Origin: Candidatus Neomarinimicrobiota bacterium | GTDB taxonomy: Bacteria > Fidelibacterota > Marinisomatia > SCGC-AAA003-L08 > TS1B11 | Reading direction: 5' to 3' | DNA: 40,199 nt | Assembly (NCBI GenBank): GCA_022560655.1 | Contig: JADFSS010000013.1 | Location: 1-40,199, forward strand | Shown: positions 1-8,444 of the stretch, piece by piece | Position numbering within the stretch: position 1 is the first letter of the stretch | How the letters are laid out: each line of letters starts with the position of its first letter | The notes under the pieces: generated by a model | The model's input: the letters and a program-made list of their open reading frames with translations, nothing else | Databases searched by the model: none | Told to the model about the DNA's origin: nothing | Position numbers and translations under genes: made by a program

Positions 1-396
1 GACCCCAACCCCGGCCAGCGTCTGCAATCGGCCAGGATTCTGGGCAGCGCCTCCGAGCTGGCCAAGAAGGAGCGTACCATGATGGCGCTCATCTCTGCCC
101 TGCTCACCGACGAGAACGCAGGCGTTCGATTGTCCATCGTGCAGAGCCTCCAGGGGGTGCAGACGCCGCTGGTCAAGGACGCCTTCATCAAGGTGGTGTT
201 GGAGGACGACAACGAGGGGGTACGCCTAGCTGCTGTGGAGAACCTGGCGTCGTTCCTGGATGATTTGTCGGTGCGCACCGCCCTGCTGCTGGTCTCGCGC
301 ATGGACCCCATGGAGAGTGTTAGCTACCGGGCCTATCAGATTCTGTCCAACGCGCCCGACGCTCGGGATGATGAACGCTTGGATTCCCGACTATGA
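1..396 (+). CDS. HEAT-repeat protein, C-terminal part (5' end outside window)
   Basis: The reading frame is open from the first base, so the N-terminus lies outside the window. The visible 131 residues are two to three HEAT-like helical repeats: the pattern 'L-D-N-GVR-A-V--L' occurs around residues 35-50 (TDENAGVRLSIVQSL) and again around 68-83 (EDDNEGVRLAAVENL). HEAT repeats are protein-binding scaffolds with no catalysis. The stop codon TGA overlaps the ATG of the next gene (ATGA), so the two are probably translationally coupled. In some bacteria a zf-HC2 anti-sigma domain followed by HEAT repeats sits between an ECF sigma factor and DUF4097 genes. That would make this the tail of an anti-sigma-like protein, but the needed N-terminus is not visible. 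Confidence 0.8.
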   Translation, partial: DPNPGQRLQSARILGSASELAKKERTMMALISALLTDENAGVRLSIVQSLQGVQTPLVKDAFIKVVLEDDNEGVRLAAVENLASFLDDLSVRTALLLVSRMDPMESVSYRAYQILSNAPDARDDERLDSRL

Positions 397-1688
397 TGCT
401 GAAACTGATCCTCATCGTGCTCATCACTGGGGTGCCGCTTGGGGGGCAGGTTGACATAGTCCTTGCCCAGAAAGTGGTACTGAAGGTCCAGCCAGCTCGC
501 CGGGGCCCGCAGCTGAGACAGCATCACGGCAGATATCAGGCGGTTATTATCCATCGTCTGGAAGTAGCTCCCGGTGCCACCCTGATCATGAAAGCCCTCC
601 GGGGTGACGTTGTCATGCTCGGTACGGATGTCCACCGTATCGTTATTGAGGAGAAAATATCGGTAAGGACTCGGCACAAAGATCATGCGCTGGAGACCAT
701 CGAGAGGGTTAAGGGAGAACTGACCGCGGTAAAGGGGAAGGAAGCTTCCTATGTCTTCAAAGTGGGGCAGTGGAGTGAGCGCAACGTATACTTCGACTAT
801 AAAGTGAAAATTCCGAAAAAGTTCAACCTTCTCATCCAGTCCTACGGCGGCGACTTCGACATGAGCGACCTGCACGGCGACCTCGAGGCTAAAACCGGGG
901 GCGGCGACATCGCCCTTTCCAAGTCGGGCGGGAAAGTCATGCTGCGCACAGGTGGCGGTGACATCGACCTGTATCAAATCGAAGGTCAGGTAAGCGTATT
1001 CACCGGCGGTGGGGACATTGAGGGCCGCACGATACAGGGCCAAGTAGAAGCTCACACCGGCGGTGGGGACATTGAATTTTGGCGCTGCAAGGGTAACTTC
1101 ACCTTCAATACCGGTGGCGGGGATATTGAAGTACAGGATCTTGAAGGCACCGAGCTGGATGCCCGTACGGGAGGGGGCGACATCATCATTGAAGACATTG
1201 TCGCCCGGGTGAATCTCTTGACCGGGGGTGGCGACATTGTCGCTGAAGCCATCGATGGCGCCATCGAGGCCGCGACCAGTGGTGGCGATGTTGATCTGAG
1301 GCGGGTCAATGGCGATGCCATCCTCTATAGCGGAGCGGGAGATATCAGTATCCGACGCATCGCGGGAGCCGTGCAGATTCGCAACAACAGTGGCGACATC
1401 AGCGTGGAAGAAATGACGCTGGCGAAGCTTGGACGGGACAAGTCCACGATCACCACCTCCTACGGAGATGTGTGGATCAGCCTGAGCACTGCCCTCCCGG
1501 TGGCCATCACTGCCAAACTACTGGGGGTCTCGCCCCACTATGCCGTCGACCGCATGCATACCAATCTGGACTTCAAATTTCGCAAGAGTGACGGCTATAC
1601 GGTGGCCAGCTTCATGCCCGCTAAGCCGGTCCACACCATTACCATTGAGACTCACGGCAAAATCGAGATAAGCCAAGGAGATGAATAA
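393..1688 (+). CDS. DUF4097-family secreted beta-solenoid protein
   Basis: This 431-residue protein has an N-terminal hydrophobic signal (residues 1-18, LILIVLITGVPLGG), a roughly 130-residue beta-rich head, then eleven rungs of 18 residues (one of 19) from about residue 150 to 348. The rung core is TGGGDI, drifting to TSGGDV, SGAGDI and NNSGDI in the last coils. Such regular turns fit the DUF4097 ('putative adhesin') fold, a right-handed beta-solenoid. No catalytic residues are evident, and export to the periplasm or surface is inferred from the signal. The ATG overlaps the stop of the HEAT gene; a second ATG three bases later is an equally possible start. The next gene overlaps its end. Members of this family are often found beside ECF sigma/anti-sigma genes, which suggests an envelope-stress or surface role. 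The exact function is unknown. Confidence 0.85.
   Translation: MMLKLILIVLITGVPLGGQVDIVLAQKVVLKVQPARRGPQLRQHHGRYQAVIIHRLEVAPGATLIMKALRGDVVMLGTDVHRIVIEEKISVRTRHKDHALETIERVKGELTAVKGKEASYVFKVGQWSERNVYFDYKVKIPKKFNLLIQSYGGDFDMSDLHGDLEAKTGGGDIALSKSGGKVMLRTGGGDIDLYQIEGQVSVFTGGGDIEGRTIQGQVEAHTGGGDIEFWRCKGNFTFNTGGGDIEVQDLEGTELDARTGGGDIIIEDIVARVNLLTGGGDIVAEAIDGAIEAATSGGDVDLRRVNGDAILYSGAGDISIRRIAGAVQIRNNSGDISVEEMTLAKLGRDKSTITTSYGDVWISLSTALPVAITAKLLGVSPHYAVDRMHTNLDFKFRKSDGYTVASFMPAKPVHTITIETHGKIEISQGDE
840..1436 (+). repeat. 54-bp tandem coding repeats of the DUF4097 solenoid
   Basis: Eleven consecutive units of 54 bp (one of 57 bp) each encode an 18-residue solenoid coil. The most conserved nucleotides encode Gly-Gly-Asp (ggcggtggggacattgag-like). 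The central units are most alike and the outer ones have diverged, as expected for growth by internal duplication followed by drift. Confidence 0.85.
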
Positions 1689-3249
1689 GACCATGAATGC
1701 CCAATTATTGCTTGCGCGTACACTTTTACTGACCGTTCCTTGGGTGCCCGCCTGGTCCCAGACTGCCGAAAATTCCGAGCCCGAGCCGCGCGCACAGAAA
1801 GAAACGGTGTCGGGGGGCGAAATCAAGATTTTCGACGACCTGGTGATCCCGGAAGGAGAAGTCCGTGCGGGTGCCGTGCGGGTGATTGGGGGGCACCTGA
1901 CTGTAGCAGGGCGGGTCACGGGTCGGATCACCGTCCTGGGGGGGGATGTGGACCTCCTTTCTACCGCCGTAATTGAGGGTACGATTGCCACCATCGGCGG
2001 ACGCATTAACCGCCACCCTGATGCGCAGGTGACGGGCCGGATACTGGAGGTAAACCGTGGCAAGGTGAGCCTGTCCAGGGAGGAGAACCGGGAACTGTTC
2101 GGCATCGATGACGACCGGGCCGAGAGCCTCGACCGGATTGATAACGGCGATGATTGGCGGACCCGCAGGGTTGACCGCCATCGCGGGACCGGTGGGCGCC
2201 GGTGGGATAGCAGGTCCAAGCAGCCCGACTTTGAGGTCGTTGACGGTGTCACCATCCGCTACAACCGCTCCGAAGGGTTGGCCCTGTATTTCCCGTTCAG
2301 CCCCAACACCGGTGATATTCCCGGGTTCAAGGTACATGGCTATGCGGGACGGGCTTTTGGTGCCCGAAAGTGGTTTGGCCGCCTCGGCGTGGGCGAATAT
2401 CTGTGGCGGGGGCGCATGGGTCTCCTGCTGGAAGGCCACAGCGAAGCCCGCCACGATGATGGCTGGCGCGTGAGTCCCACCGAAAACACTCTGGGTGCCC
2501 TGTTCATTAACAGCGACTGGTACGACTGGTATCAGGCCGAGGGCTTCGGCGGCTCACTGGTCCTGGCACTTCCCAACCTGTTTGAGCTCAAAGCCCGCTA
2601 CCGAAATGAAAATCACCGCATCATGGACGTGGTTACCAACTGGAGCCTGTTGGGTCAGGCCGGGGAGTTCCGGCCCAAATACCTCATCGATGAGGGCCGG
2701 GACGCCAACCTGCAACTCCGTTTGGCTGCCGGTGCGCCGCTGGGCCCGTTTCCGGGCCGCTTCCAGGGGAACTTTGCCTATGCCCAGACTCAAAGCATGT
2801 CCGGCAGTGACTTTGACTATCTGCGCGAGGACCTTAGTCTTGCTGCCTTCGTCCCCCTGCACCGCCGGCTCGGCCTCACCGTGAGCGGCCGCACCGGTAC
2901 CATCACCGGCAGCAATTACGGCCTTCAACATCAGGTGGCCGTGGGGGGAATCGGATCGGTTCAGGGCTATGCCTACAAGAGCTTGGGTACCGGGAATCAC
3001 TATGCCATCATCCAGGCGGCCATTACCCTGCGGGATTTCGACAAGTTCTACAGCCTGATGGGCCACCTGGGCGGAGTCTGGGACGCCAGCGCGGGGCTGC
3101 TGACGGGCGAGCACCTGCGCGCTAGCTCGCAGAACAATTCGGCCGCCTTGGGCCTGGCGTATGGCGGTGAGAGCTTCAGGTTGGAGTTTTTTAAGCCCGT
3201 CACCAGTGGGGCGGACTGGACAATTTATTTAAGAATTCTGGACCAGTAA
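1681..3249 (+). CDS. Bactofilin-like N-terminal domain fused to an outer-membrane beta-barrel
   Basis: There are 522 residues. A signal peptide (residues 5-26, ending PAWSQ) is followed by a short polymer-forming/bactofilin-like segment at about 45-125 (GAVRVIGGHLTVAGRVTGRI, GTIATIGGRI), an acidic and basic linker, and from about residue 180 a long alternating aromatic/polar region that looks like an outer-membrane barrel. Near the C-terminus GIGSVQGYAYKSLGTG resembles the RGY region of D15/BamA/TamA-type barrels, with Gln in place of Arg. The protein probably sits in the outer membrane with a periplasmic beta-helix. Start choice is uncertain: AAGGAG abuts ATG 1681 with no spacing, whereas ATG 1693 (residue 5) has a 12-base spacing and may be the true start. 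It overlaps the DUF4097 gene and probably belongs to the same operon. Confidence 0.7.
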   Translation: MNKTMNAQLLLARTLLLTVPWVPAWSQTAENSEPEPRAQKETVSGGEIKIFDDLVIPEGEVRAGAVRVIGGHLTVAGRVTGRITVLGGDVDLLSTAVIEGTIATIGGRINRHPDAQVTGRILEVNRGKVSLSREENRELFGIDDDRAESLDRIDNGDDWRTRRVDRHRGTGGRRWDSRSKQPDFEVVDGVTIRYNRSEGLALYFPFSPNTGDIPGFKVHGYAGRAFGARKWFGRLGVGEYLWRGRMGLLLEGHSEARHDDGWRVSPTENTLGALFINSDWYDWYQAEGFGGSLVLALPNLFELKARYRNENHRIMDVVTNWSLLGQAGEFRPKYLIDEGRDANLQLRLAAGAPLGPFPGRFQGNFAYAQTQSMSGSDFDYLREDLSLAAFVPLHRRLGLTVSGRTGTITGSNYGLQHQVAVGGIGSVQGYAYKSLGTGNHYAIIQAAITLRDFDKFYSLMGHLGGVWDASAGLLTGEHLRASSQNNSAALGLAYGGESFRLEFFKPVTSGADWTIYLRILDQ

Positions 3250-3258
3250 GGAGCCGGC

Positions 3259-4137
3259 ATGACCCGCACGATGCAATCCGTTATCATGATCCTGGGACTG
3301 CTGGCGAGCACCGCCTGGGCCGGTCAGGGCGATGGTCGCGCCATTCTGACGATCGACGAGGACCTGGATAAAAATGTGACGCTACTGGAAATCAGCGTGG
3401 AGTTCAGCTTCGGCGAGATTCGCGTCGAACGGGGCAACCCCGGCAAAGCCGTCACTGGTTATGTCCGCTACGACGAGGAATATCTGCGGCCCCGGATCGA
3501 GTACGGGGTCAGTGGCGGCATCGCCCGCTTCGAACTCACAACCAGGAGCAGGCACAAGCGGTGGGGCGTAGATCTGATCCGACGCGACATGGAATCGCCC
3601 GAAAGTGAACTCTACTTCACCACCCGGGTCCCGCTGCATCTGGATTTCACAACGGGAATGGGGGAAGCCAGGCTGGACCTGGGCCAGCTCAAAGTTGCGG
3701 AGCTAAACCTGGACAACGGTATGGGTGAGACGGAGCTGAACTTCTCCAGCCTCAATGGTGTGCAGCTGAGCCGCATATCTGTGGACAATGGACTGGGGGA
3801 GCTGGTGGCGCGAAATCTCTCGAATGCACGTACCCGGCGCCTGCACTTCGATTGCGGGCTGGGTTCTGCCGAGCTCGACTTTGACGGTGAGGAGTTTCGA
3901 GACATGTCCGTGGAGGTGAACGTGGGGCTGGGCAGCGTGGTACTATGGATTCCTCGGGGCTACAATGTCACGATGGAGGCGGAGGAGAACTTCCTCTCCA
4001 ACGTCGACGCCCGGGATATGATCCAAAAGGGCCGGGGCTACTATCTCAGCGAAAATTATGATCCTTCCAAGCCCACGCTGGAAATCACCGCATCGGTGGG
4101 CCTGGGCAATATCGATCTGAGGTGGATTGAGCCTTAG
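3259..4137 (+). CDS. Toast-rack-domain secreted protein (DUF2154/LiaF-like)
   Basis: There are 292 residues with a clear signal peptide (1-21, GLLASTAWAG). The mature part is all-beta with repeats that end in Gly-x-Gly-(E/S): FTTGMGEARLDLG, LDNGMGETELNF, VDNGLGELVARN, FDCGLGSAELDF, VNVGLGSVVLWIP and SVGLGNIDLRW. This pattern matches the toast-rack fold of LiaF/DUF2154-type C-terminal domains, which sense or scaffold at the membrane surface. Here there are no transmembrane helices after the signal, so the protein should be soluble in the periplasm or exposed. It starts 9 bp after the barrel gene, preceded by AAGGAG, and closes the four-gene operon. The family assignment rests on repeat style, so it is moderately certain. 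Confidence 0.75.
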   Translation: MTRTMQSVIMILGLLASTAWAGQGDGRAILTIDEDLDKNVTLLEISVEFSFGEIRVERGNPGKAVTGYVRYDEEYLRPRIEYGVSGGIARFELTTRSRHKRWGVDLIRRDMESPESELYFTTRVPLHLDFTTGMGEARLDLGQLKVAELNLDNGMGETELNFSSLNGVQLSRISVDNGLGELVARNLSNARTRRLHFDCGLGSAELDFDGEEFRDMSVEVNVGLGSVVLWIPRGYNVTMEAEENFLSNVDARDMIQKGRGYYLSENYDPSKPTLEITASVGLGNIDLRWIEP

Positions 4138-4433: not shown

Positions 4434-5123
4434 TCAATTCCAGGTGGGATTCGTGGGCAGGATGGGATCAAATGGCCCCATGGCGTCGATGCTGTGCAGG
4501 CCGCTCTCCAGGAAGTTCAGCAAAATGTCTATCCGCAGTTCCAGAGATTGCAGCTCCAGCATCTTCTGTTTCTCCGCCGCAGCGACCGGTAAGGCACTTA
4601 TCACCACATGTACGAGCATCTCCAGGGGAATCATCTCCTGCTGCAGCGCCGCCAGATTACCTTCCAACTGCGATTTTTCCAGGATTGATTCGAATCTGCT
4701 CAAAATACTTTTCCGCTTCTGCTCCCCGTCAGTTACCTGGCTGAATTCCTTGAGTGGCGTTACCGCCCCCCGCCGATAAGGCTTGTCCGAATCCAGCTCC
4801 TCAATGCGTACTTTGACCAACCCCGTTACCAAAATATCGAATTTGTTATTCTCGTGCGGCTGAACATTGTTGAGGTACCCCATCGTAGCAATTTTCCGAA
4901 TGGCAGGAACCTCCACCCGCTGGCCCTTGCCAGCCTCAGCCAGCAGAGGAATGGTTATGAGGCGCTCGCCCGCCATGGCATCCTTCACCATCTGCACATA
5001 GCGGGGCTCAAAAATGTGAAACGGCTGGACTGTCTGGGGGAAGAATACAAAATCGGGCAGTGGAAACAGCGGGGTAGTTCCCGAGAATGAGTCCAACAGT
5101 TCCTTAACGGTCGCCATCGCCAT
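4434..5123 (-). CDS. LON substrate-binding-domain protein (stand-alone)
   Basis: There are 229 residues. The N-terminus PLFPLPDFVFFPQTVQPFHI followed by FEPRYVQMVKDAM (about 18-50) is the signature of the LON N-terminal substrate-binding domain (PF02190), and the remainder is the helical extension of that domain. There is no AAA+ ATPase or Ser-Lys protease part, so this is not a Lon protease but one of the short Lon-N-like proteins whose role is poorly known. The start codon overlaps the stop of the Rieske gene by one base (TAATG), which indicates translational coupling. A second in-frame ATG two codons downstream is also possible. Confidence 0.85.
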   Translation of the reverse strand: MAMATVKELLDSFSGTTPLFPLPDFVFFPQTVQPFHIFEPRYVQMVKDAMAGERLITIPLLAEAGKGQRVEVPAIRKIATMGYLNNVQPHENNKFDILVTGLVKVRIEELDSDKPYRRGAVTPLKEFSQVTDGEQKRKSILSRFESILEKSQLEGNLAALQQEMIPLEMLVHVVISALPVAAAEKQKMLELQSLELRIDILLNFLESGLHSIDAMGPFDPILPTNPTWN

Positions 5124-5524
5124 TACCTGTGCTGCCCGGACTCATCGTAGAGTGGCCCGTAATCAGGGTGCTGGAGCCCGGGGTCAAGGCGAACCTGAAT
5201 GGCCCCCTCACGAATCCGCACCGGATAGCTTCTCAGCCGGGCCTCCGGATTATCCACACAGCGGCCACTATCGATATGATACTCCCAATCGTGCATGGGG
5301 CAGGTCACCTTGCCGTTGCTTACTCGCCCATCCCCAATGGATCCTCCCCGGTGTACGCAGCGGTTGTCCAAGGCATAAATGCCCCCTTTGCCGCCCGGAG
5401 TATCGGCGGGGGACAGGTGAAAAACGGCAATGGCCAGATCGCCCCGTTCAATGATAATGCGCTGGCTCCCCGGCGGCAAATCCGCCAGGCGTAACACGGT
5501 CCGGTAATCTTGTTCATCATCCAT
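5123..5524 (-). CDS. Rieske [2Fe-2S] ferredoxin-like protein
   Basis: There are 133 residues forming a single soluble Rieske domain. The cluster ligands are C56-x-H58 (CVHRGG) and C75-x2-H78 (CPMHDW), spaced as in NirD-like and dioxygenase-type ferredoxins. It has no transmembrane anchor and no twin-arginine signal, so it should be a cytoplasmic electron carrier or the small subunit of an oxidoreductase. No oxygenase or nitrite reductase large subunit is nearby, so its partner is unknown. It is followed directly (TAATG overlap) by the LON-domain gene. The 178 bp between it and queG hold no convincing gene. Confidence 0.9.
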   Translation of the reverse strand: MDDEQDYRTVLRLADLPPGSQRIIIERGDLAIAVFHLSPADTPGGKGGIYALDNRCVHRGGSIGDGRVSNGKVTCPMHDWEYHIDSGRCVDNPEARLRSYPVRIREGAIQVRLDPGLQHPDYGPLYDESGQHR

Positions 5525-5702
5525 TGCTCACGACCCAAGCACTTTGCAGGCTAACCATACTCGCTCAATATGGTGTCCCGCAACCAGGTGGGCAGTCCAA
5601 CCATGCCGCTGCGCCCGCCCACAAGATCGCGGCTCCTGGCAGCGCTCTCAAGCAGACGGTGCCCTCTCCGGCGCCTCTCCGAACAGGCGCAACGAAACAA
5701 AG

Positions 5703-6710
5703 TTAGACGCCCCCGTTTCGATTTGTCAACTGCTTTGCCGGGAGCCCGTTCAGCGCCCCGCCTGCTGCCGCAATCCGCTTTAGCCCCTGATAGCCCGGTC
5801 GCCGCGCCGCGCTGCCCCGCAGCAGGCGGTCCCACGTCCCAAAACTCAACCCGGCCCAATCGGACCAGCTGTAGGTGCTGATGAATTCCCGGGGCTGGAA
5901 GGCTTGTTCCGGTGACGGCTGGGCAAAGCGGACATTCCAGGGACACACATCCTGGCAAACGTCACAACCGTACAGCCACCCGTCCAGCCGGGCCCCGTCA
6001 TCCGGATCCACGCCCTCGGGGTGCTCGATCGTCAGGTAGGAAATACACCGGGTGGCGTCCAGCTGGTAGGCGGCGGTAAGGGCCTGGGTCGGGCAGGCTT
6101 CCAGACAGGCGGTGCAGCTGCCGCACAGGTCTTCCTCGAAGGGCGGGTCGGGCTCCAGCGCAATGTCCAGCAAAAGCTCTCCCAGAAACACCCACGAGCC
6201 GTAGTCCCTGGTGATGAGGTTGGTGTGCTTTCCCTGCCAACCCAGCCCCGCCCGCTGCGCCCACACTTTTTCCATGACGGGCGAGGTATCCACGCTGGCG
6301 ATGCCGTTCACATCGGGATGAACCACTGTGAGTTCCCGGAGCAACGCCCTCAGCCGCTTTTTCAACAGGCGATGGTAGTCGTCACCCCAGGCGTACCGGG
6401 ACCAGCGGGGTGAACCGTCCGGTTGCTGCGGCGCAGGGGTATGATAGTTCATAGCCAGCGCCACAACGGTCTGAACCGGGGGAAAGTAGACGCAGGGATC
6501 GCTGCGCTCAGCCTGCCTGCGGGCCATCCAGTCCATGGCGCCGTGGCGCCCTTGCCGAAGCCAGTCCTGCAGATCCTGGCCCTGCTGCCCAAGCGCGCCC
6601 GCTTTCGCGAAGCCCACCTTCTGGAAGCCCAGCCGGAGCGCGGCCTGGCGAATGAACTGCTTCAGATCGGGAGCGGCGGCAGCGGGGTCCGATACCAGGG
6701 GGTGAGACAT
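5703..6710 (-). CDS. queG: Epoxyqueuosine reductase QueG
   Basis: QueG performs the last step of queuosine synthesis, reducing epoxyqueuosine in the tRNA wobble position with a cobalamin cofactor and two [4Fe-4S] clusters. The 335-residue length fits, although many homologues are somewhat longer. D141 in the DTSPVMEK motif corresponds to the catalytic Asp. Cluster cysteines are C196-C199-C202-C206 (CGSCTACLEACP) and C222 plus C249-C252-C256 (CDVCQDVCPWN). The enzyme is cytoplasmic. A GAGG lies only two bases before the ATG, closer than usual. It sits about 100 bp after the TPR gene and may share its transcript. No other queuosine genes are in the window. Confidence 0.95.
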   Translation of the reverse strand: MSHPLVSDPAAAAPDLKQFIRQAALRLGFQKVGFAKAGALGQQGQDLQDWLRQGRHGAMDWMARRQAERSDPCVYFPPVQTVVALAMNYHTPAPQQPDGSPRWSRYAWGDDYHRLLKKRLRALLRELTVVHPDVNGIASVDTSPVMEKVWAQRAGLGWQGKHTNLITRDYGSWVFLGELLLDIALEPDPPFEEDLCGSCTACLEACPTQALTAAYQLDATRCISYLTIEHPEGVDPDDGARLDGWLYGCDVCQDVCPWNVRFAQPSPEQAFQPREFISTYSWSDWAGLSFGTWDRLLRGSAARRPGYQGLKRIAAAGGALNGLPAKQLTNRNGGV

Positions 6711-6810
6711 TACCTCATGACCGCAGATGGAGGCACTCTGTGGTCGGCACGCTGGGAAGTCATGGGTGGCCTGTTAGCGAGGGGTCCGAAAGCGCCCCAC
6801 GGCCCGGGAG

Positions 6811-7587
6811 CTAGAGCTTTCCCAGCAATGCCCGGGCCTCCTCCTGGAGAATGGTATCGCTGTCGGAACCGGGCGGCAGGCTGACGGCGATTTCCAGGCT
6901 GGCCTTGGCCGCTGAATCGTTTTCCAGCTGCAGCTGACTCTTGCCGAGCCACAGAAAGTGGCGCACGTCATCGGGGTCCAGTTCGCCGGCCCGCTTGAAG
7001 TAGCCCGAGGCCTCTGCAAACGACGCCTGCGGTGGTGTGGCGTAGATCAGCGCGGCAATATTGCGCTCAATCCAGCTCAGATCGGCCAGCGTGAAGTGCC
7101 ACTGCCCCATGACATGCTGCCAGGAGTCGTTGATCGGGTCCAGCTCGATGGCCCTCAGGGTATGATCCCGCACGGCGTAGGAGTTCTTGATTTTCTGCTT
7201 GGTACCTTCGATCTGCCCCACCCGGCCAATGAGGATGGCGTAGTAGCCGTGGGCGAACGCATTGGCGGAATCGGCGGCCAGCGCCTTCTGCGCCTGATCG
7301 AAGCCGGCGTAGAGCTCCCGCTCGATGACCTCCTCATCGGCCGTGTTGTCGGACACGTTGAAGTGGTGCCGGGCCATGCGCCACAGATAGTCGACCTTGT
7401 CGCGCTCTGCGCTGCCCACCCGTATCAGCAGGGCATGGGCGCCGTCAAAGTCCTTCGCCGCATTGAGCGCGTCAATCTGCGTCCAGGTCGGCGCATTGCC
7501 CTGGGATGCACCGGCTGCTCCGCCCCACAGGGGCAGTGCCGCCACCAGTAGCACCAGCAGTGTACTGGGCCCAATCTTCGGTGCCAT
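6811..7587 (-). CDS. Secreted TPR protein, RMD-like
   Basis: The chosen start gives 258 residues. GGGGGAG lies 6 bases before ATG 7587, so this is preferred to the in-frame TTG 21 bases upstream. A signal peptide covers about 1-28 (LLVLLVAALPLWGGAAGA). The rest is a helical TPR-like array with DPxN/DPDD loop motifs (LRAIELDPINDSWQHVMGQW, AGELDPDDVRHFLWLGKSQL). The layout resembles the regulator-of-microtubule-dynamics-type TPR proteins also seen in bacteria. It is a periplasmic scaffold by inference. It starts 23 bp after the YjbH-like barrel gene, so the two are likely cotranscribed and may act together in the envelope. Confidence 0.75.
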   Translation of the reverse strand: MAPKIGPSTLLVLLVAALPLWGGAAGASQGNAPTWTQIDALNAAKDFDGAHALLIRVGSAERDKVDYLWRMARHHFNVSDNTADEEVIERELYAGFDQAQKALAADSANAFAHGYYAILIGRVGQIEGTKQKIKNSYAVRDHTLRAIELDPINDSWQHVMGQWHFTLADLSWIERNIAALIYATPPQASFAEASGYFKRAGELDPDDVRHFLWLGKSQLQLENDSAAKASLEIAVSLPPGSDSDTILQEEARALLGKL

Positions 7588-7610
7588 CAGCAACTCCCCC
7601 GCTGTCAAGT

Positions 7611-8444
7611 TCAGAAAATCTCGCTGTAGACCACCTTCAGCTCCCGGCTGAAATACTGCACGCCCCCGCCCTTGTTAACCAGGATGTCGTTCAGGTCCAC
7701 CTCCATGTAGAAATTGCTGGCAAGGTGCCAGCGGATGCCGGCATTCAGGTAGCCCTTCCCCTTCCCTACGGTCAGCTCCTTCAGTTTATCCCTGGTAATC
7801 TTGGCTTCGTAACCGTTATCATCCAGGGCGGCGTTATATTCCAGGAAAACACCCAGACCTGGAGCGATATCCTTATCGAAGCCCACAAACAGATTGAGGC
7901 CGTTCTCGACGTCATCGCTCTCCCACACGTTCTTGCTCAGGCCCAGGTGGCTGCCGAAATTGCCGAAGATCTGCCAGTTCTTACTCACCACCAGGTATAG
8001 TCCAATGGCCTTCACATCGTACCGGGCCATGGCAATCTGTGGGTTCCCGTTGGCCGAATCGATCGTGGCCTCCCAGAATTCGCCCCGTCCCTGGCTGTCC
8101 AGCCCGATGGCGATGGCCGGCAGCGAGAAGCTCTCATCGATGACGCGGTATTTCAGCTGGGCCTCAGGCAGCGGTTGGAAGCTGATCGTATCGTCCCCAA
8201 TGAAGCGCTGCACGGAGTAGCTCAAACCCAGGGAGAAGCGGTCGGAGAACCCGACCCCCAGCCGGCCCAATACGCCCCCGTCGCGCTGCATCAGCAGTTC
8301 CACCTCGAACATGCCCCGCTGGGGCGTACCTGCCGTGGGCACCGTGACCAGATTGGCGGGCGGCAGGGGCACCTGCCCCCACAGAGAACCTGTCAGGCCC
8401 AATAGCCCGATGATCAGCGGGCGAGTAAGTCGTATCCCTGCCAT
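7611..8444 (-). CDS. Outer-membrane beta-barrel protein, YjbH-like
   Basis: This is a 277-residue protein with a signal peptide (1-23, GLLGLTGSLWGQ) and a mature part of alternating hydrophobic strands (MFEVELLMQRDGGVLGRLGV, LGLSYSVQRFIG, LGVFLEYNAAL), ending in an aromatic residue (VVYSEIF) as barrel proteins often do. The conserved-looking start PPANLVTVPTAGTPQRGMFEVEL resembles the YjbH/DUF-type lipoprotein-like barrels of exopolysaccharide clusters, but without a lipobox cysteine. It is probably an outer-membrane channel or barrel, and its substrate is unknown. It is the first gene of the minus-strand group with the RMD-like TPR protein. Confidence 0.6.
   Translation of the reverse strand: MAGIRLTRPLIIGLLGLTGSLWGQVPLPPANLVTVPTAGTPQRGMFEVELLMQRDGGVLGRLGVGFSDRFSLGLSYSVQRFIGDDTISFQPLPEAQLKYRVIDESFSLPAIAIGLDSQGRGEFWEATIDSANGNPQIAMARYDVKAIGLYLVVSKNWQIFGNFGSHLGLSKNVWESDDVENGLNLFVGFDKDIAPGLGVFLEYNAALDDNGYEAKITRDKLKELTVGKGKGYLNAGIRWHLASNFYMEVDLNDILVNKGGGVQYFSRELKVVYSEIF

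Follow-up and report, generated by a model that had tools for sequence, protein, structure and literature searches.

A putative ECF-controlled envelope-stress operon of Neomarinimicrobiota encoding a bactofilin-like/Omp85 barrel protein and two toast-rack proteins

The bactofilins known so far are cytosolic polymers. The phylum Neomarinimicrobiota, to which the locus described here belongs, is mostly marine and, to our knowledge, almost no genetics exists for it. Operons joining toast-rack proteins to a linked sigma factor have been noted alongside Lia and other toast-rack-centred PSP-like systems, and an intracellular place has been argued for the toast-racks (PMC11237479). The Omp85 superfamily comprises ten subfamilies, some of them without POTRA domains (PMC4104836). 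ECF sigma/anti-sigma pairs, toast-racks, Omp85 barrels and bactofilins are therefore known ingredients, but our literature search, which had few subscription papers within reach, found no published description of their combination.

The stretch of DNA analysed (the window, 40,199 nucleotides) forms the left end of contig C13 in a genome from this phylum. As a sequence-only reading had proposed, it opens with four plus-strand genes that overlap or, in one case, lie 9 bp apart, and these encode the following features:

1..396, + strand: predicted membrane anti-sigma factor, C-terminal HEAT-repeat part, truncated at the contig start (HEAT_2, E=1.2e-11; homology to family f1)
393..1688, + strand: secreted DUF4097 toast-rack beta-helix protein, 431 aa, 18 residues per rung (Pfam, AF2, Foldseek)
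1681..3249, + strand: fusion protein of 522 aa, bactofilin-like beta-helix plus Omp85-type outer-membrane barrel (Pfam, AF2, Foldseek)
1801..2052, + strand: bactofilin-like beta-helix of the fusion protein, residues 41-124 (AF2 model; Pfam stretch 46-121)
2251..3237, + strand: barrel of the fusion protein, residues 191-519, with the GGIGSVQGY loop at 422-430 (AF2, BamA/TamA matches, motif comparison)
3259..4137, + strand: LiaF-like toast-rack protein, secreted, 292 aa; final gene of the operon (LiaF-like_C, Toast_rack_N, 4QRK)

Downstream of the operon, on the minus strand (window 4434-8444), there are genes for a LON substrate-binding protein, a Rieske-like protein, a QueG-like protein, a TPR protein and a probable outer-membrane protein of 277 aa, and the same set flanks the operon in L030. 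For the TPR protein (6811-7608, minus strand; 265 aa, secreted) Pfam gives PF21033 at E=1.5e-22; this family, Regulator of microtubule dynamics 1-3, takes its name from proteins of eukaryotes.

In our view the operon is probably a self-regulated module dedicated to envelope stress, with a beta-helix assembly of the outer membrane and periplasm as its effector core. Its composition and wiring are well supported computationally, and its signal, protein contacts and activity are inferred.

The composition was established by comparing loci across the phylum, where the barrel family is present in 73 of 245 genomes; 55 loci were examined in context and every ORF in them was scanned against profiles of the five families concerned. 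An alignment-based query was needed for this purpose, a single-sequence search of the genome contigs having given nothing. The order ECF sigma factor, HEAT protein, DUF4097 protein and barrel protein recurs in about 40 loci, spread over more than ten Neomarinimicrobiota families, although protein identities to the window fall as low as 22-33%. The check for conservation of this order in other genomes was therefore positive. Where the contig extends further, the barrel gene is followed by the toast-rack gene, with family f23 (L130-L132) as the exception; most junctions are overlaps or lie within about 15 bp, and the operons hold only the five families. An apparent absence of the DUF4097 gene from L035, L097, L119 and L120 was traced to gene calling.

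The fifth family, an ECF sigma factor, had been suspected to lie to the left of the four genes, and in relatives its gene indeed directly precedes the HEAT gene. The identity of these sigma proteins is given by TIGR02937 (115 bits against a cut-off of 42.9, in relatives only, the window copy being off the contig), and both Sigma70_r2 and r4_2 were matched in L022 and L032. Because the contig start cuts the HEAT gene, the window's sigma gene cannot be read in its own genome, and the same break removes the promoter; a search across that genome returned a best match of 36% identity, which is not an orthologue. In genome G010 (L025, L207) no sigma gene stands beside the operon, where masked bases occur, and a closely similar sigma gene with the promoter motif lies about 1.5 Mb away.

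The HEAT tail recognised in the window's first gene corresponds to the C-terminal 131 aa of a protein of about 305 aa, being 70-80% identical over this length to the C-termini of family f1 proteins of that size. In the complete proteins a cytoplasmic segment is followed by a single hydrophobic stretch and, at the C-terminus, by HEAT repeats. In one relative (L096) the cytoplasmic segment matches the anti-sigma domain RskA_N with E=6.5e-6 and 26.7 bits, just under the cut-off of 27.0, and comparison with the PDB gave weak matches to 3HUG and 4NQW. The segment is shortened in the window's own family, and an anti-sigma function there would therefore rest on homology, position and topology. A zf-HC2 domain, which the sequence-only reading had suggested looking for, is not the general anti-sigma type: the zinc motif HxxxCxxC, characteristic of zinc anti-sigma domains, does occur in the cytoplasmic segment of L130-L132, where Pfam reports no zf-HC2, but the Cys and His ligands are absent at that place in most lineages.

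Seven loci (L098, L099, L100, L102, L111, L112 and L126) carry no intact sigma or anti-sigma genes and yet retain the DUF4097 and barrel genes. Broken remnants of the regulators can still be seen ahead of the intact pair at L111:4090-4940 and L112:6070-6880. The barrel family is also found in a second phylum (around L053, labelled Bacteroidota), in 73 of 82 genomes; among 20 loci examined there, 13 have a toast-rack gene, and eight a DUF4097 gene, adjacent or close to the barrel gene, and a search for ECF and HEAT anti-sigma genes in them found none. Around L059 (labelled Longimicrobiales) the barrel profile matched in only 8 of 395 genomes of that phylum at the threshold used. Since the DUF4097 and barrel genes outlive the loss of the regulators, and since the core occurs without the sigma factor in the second phylum, it is reasonable to regard this pair as an effector core separable from its regulator, and sensing is then not the core's only role.

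The second protein of the window had been described as a solenoid with an 18-residue period, and this is confirmed: it matches Pfam DUF4097 above the cut-off (E=8.9e-17), its GD[ILVF] repeats recur every 18 residues with a lag-18 glycine autocorrelation reached by none of 2000 shuffles, and its AlphaFold2 model (pLDDT 90.9) is a beta-helix with strands every 18 residues. This locus is the only one with DUF4097 in the window's genome. The toast-rack assignment of the fourth protein is confirmed by a match of its family profile to the solved toast-rack 4QRK (E=1.1e-23). It has, however, to be extended to the second protein, whose model has 4QRK, 3PET and 3LJY as Foldseek relatives and which belongs to the same superfamily. 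The suggested link to Lia-type sensors is visible in remote NCBIfam matches to LiaG (DUF4097 protein) and LiaF (fourth protein).

For the third protein, a bactofilin-like segment joined to a D15-like barrel had been claimed. In the window itself the bactofilin match scores 22.0 bits against a cut-off of 27.9, and the Omp85/D15 match, at 20.9 bits, is just below the Pfam cut-off; Omp85 is above its cut-off in homologues, and a 754-aa homologue from another phylum (L272) far exceeds the cut-offs for both domains (bactofilin 50.8 and Omp85 52.0 bits), which indicates that the fusion is real. The AlphaFold2 model of the window protein (mean pLDDT 70.9, pTM 0.59) shows a beta-helix of about five rungs at residues 41-124, disorder at 125-185 and 15-16 strands (countable as 16) at 191-519, and the best 50 PDB matches listed for it are all BamA or TamA; structure prediction thus returned the barrel on which the earlier proposal depended. 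The GGIGSVQGY loop, between strands 11 and 12, occupies the place of the Omp85 loop 6 (L6) motif. The arginine of that motif (RGF/RGY) is retained in families f4, f23, f25 and f31, is absent from the window protein (QGY) and has been lost in most other lineages.

Several further observations concern this barrel family. In the second phylum (L272:1568-3832, and also L271-L278) the fusion proteins reach about 750 aa and carry several bactofilin stretches ahead of the barrel. At L036:6967-9450, outside any such operon, a member of the family has its barrel fused to a caspase-like Peptidase_C14 domain (E=6e-20). A C-terminal F or other hydrophobic residue is the usual outer-membrane signal; most relatives end in this way, and the window protein ends in Q (3238-3246).

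The main rival to a stress module is that the operon chiefly encodes machinery for assembly or translocation, of the TAM or two-partner type, in which the barrel would insert or export proteins, the toast-racks would be chaperones or substrates, and the sigma factor would set the dose only. An Omp85-type barrel with BamA and TamA as its best structural matches, the persistence of the DUF4097-barrel pair without regulators and the general function of the superfamily (PMC4104836) all speak for such a machine. We nevertheless regard it as unlikely, given that no POTRA domain was found in the window barrel protein either by Pfam or in the AlphaFold2 model, that most operon lineages, including the window's family, have lost the L6 arginine, and that the genome encodes at least eight other Omp85 proteins above the cut-off.

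The self-regulation that we propose is suggested by a promoter-like motif, TGACAACC-N16/17-GTC, found upstream of the sigma gene in 32 of 38 loci (0.14% in shuffled upstream stretches) and mostly located 20-24 bp upstream of the start codon. The motif occurs in none of nine upstream stretches from loci without an upstream sigma gene, a contrast that is supporting only, since two of these stretches (L101 and L129) run into a contig edge and coding sequence makes up part of several. At the genome scale, the exact site is present in 12 of 14 genomes of other families, and in nine of these 12, which are smaller genomes, it is the single exact site and lies at this operon. It persists even ahead of the decayed operon of G126, where a deletion (L288; G126:C36:17792) has joined the start of the sigma gene (~32 residues) to a frame further on, directly before the barrel gene. 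Genomes G132 and G164 carry exact sites elsewhere than at the operon, one of those in G164 preceding a protein whose start resembles CBM9/DUF5916 proteins.

Three larger genomes, from one genus of the window's family, have 10, 15 and 15 sites, compared with 1, 3 and 1 for a reversed-pattern control. In all three the genes behind these sites include those for DUF4097 proteins (some of them lipoproteins), a DrrA-type ABC ATPase and MacB/FtsX permeases; DUF5916 proteins follow sites in two of the three, and there are single cases of an HlyD adaptor, a TonB-dependent receptor and a CsgG-like lipoprotein. The likeness of the sites to the sigma factor's own promoter suggests that it may use them. 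In the window's genome the motif is not enriched, the loose promoter pattern giving 11 matches against 19 for its control, and no regulon is therefore claimed there.

These predicted additional targets bear on a second rival, according to which the products would have a structural role, as a scaffold in the periplasm or a surface layer, with bactofilin-like segments that polymerise, toast-racks that extend the lattice, a barrel that anchors it and a sigma factor that answers growth state rather than damage. The operon does encode three beta-helical proteins, one of them from a polymer-forming family, but the bactofilin match of the window protein is below the cut-off and covers only about five rungs, and the extended targets include ABC exporters; we judge this reading to be less likely again than an assembly machine. 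That the genes are neighbours by descent only, without joint function, as might be supposed of a locus inherited within the phylum and often found beside a dehydrogenase-type gene, is very improbable in view of an order kept at 22-33% identity while other neighbours change, a shared promoter, joint loss and the renewed clustering of barrel, toast-rack and DUF4097 genes in another phylum.

As an envelope-stress module, the operon could work as follows. The single-pass anti-sigma factor, as its homology and topology suggest, would use its cytoplasmic segment to hold the ECF sigma factor at the inner membrane and would expose its HEAT-repeat domain to the periplasm. The sigma factor would transcribe its own operon from the conserved ECF-type promoter motif, which it presumably recognises. 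The products, as judged from sequence and models, are an outer-membrane Omp85-type barrel with a bactofilin-like beta-helix in place of POTRA domains and two secreted toast-rack beta-helix proteins. The beta-helical parts may dock on each other in the periplasm, and the resulting assembly may stabilise or service the outer membrane. The HEAT domain would then read disturbance of the assembly, closing a feedback loop in which envelope disturbance is the signal. More tentatively, it is possible that the Omp85-derived barrel, having lost the loop 6 arginine and carrying a bactofilin-like rod, serves at the outer membrane as anchor for a chain of beta-helices through which the inner-membrane HEAT anti-sigma factor is informed of that membrane's condition, and that the core of barrel, toast-rack and DUF4097 proteins is an old envelope device of at least two phyla placed under different regulators. 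The first interpretation of these genes, a self-assembling envelope structure or damage-sensing module, is thus partly supported: it keeps its upstream ECF sigma factor, conserved order, predicted barrel and Lia-like components, and loses zf-HC2 as the rule.

If this scheme is correct, the poorly understood toast-rack proteins gain a clear partner, and an outer-membrane protein becomes linked to an ECF sigma factor that has a predicted promoter and, in many genomes, a single exact target. With so small and well-defined a set of parts (sigma factor, anti-sigma factor, promoter, effectors), the scheme is testable by reconstitution in a laboratory host.

Compared with described systems, the locus appears to be an ECF-controlled envelope stress operon containing a new Omp85 architecture. 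With Lia (LiaIHGFSR) and the toast-rack-centred PSP-like systems (PMC11237479) it shares a LiaG-like (DUF4097) and a LiaF_C-like toast-rack protein encoded in one operon with a membrane stress regulator, but the ECF sigma/HEAT anti-sigma pair stands in place of LiaS/LiaR, the transmembrane part of LiaF, LiaI, PspC and PspA are missing from the operon, the toast-racks are secreted and an outer-membrane barrel is added. Pairs of the RpoE-RseA, SigK-RskA and SigW-RsiW kind likewise have overlapping genes for a sigma factor and a single-pass anti-sigma factor, with an AAC-type -35 and a GTC-type -10 motif upstream, whereas here the extracytoplasmic domain consists of HEAT repeats, the effectors are a bactofilin-like/Omp85 barrel and toast-racks, and many genomes have one exact site. 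The barrel resembles the Omp85 superfamily (BamA, TamA, FhaC, PlpD) in its 16-strand type and in GGxGS-x-x-GY at the place of the loop 6 motif, and differs in the loss of the L6 arginine from most operon members and in its bactofilin-like N-terminus, which adds an architecture absent from the ten of the 2014 superfamily survey (PMC4104836). Related barrels with other N-termini match both Omp85 and DUF5686 (PF18939), but the N-terminus of DUF5686 is of the CarboxypepD_reg type and that of the operon protein is a bactofilin-like beta-helix. Finally, the segment has in common with bactofilins (PF04519) a short beta-helix with GG-containing rungs, and is distinguished from them by following a signal peptide and being fused to a barrel.
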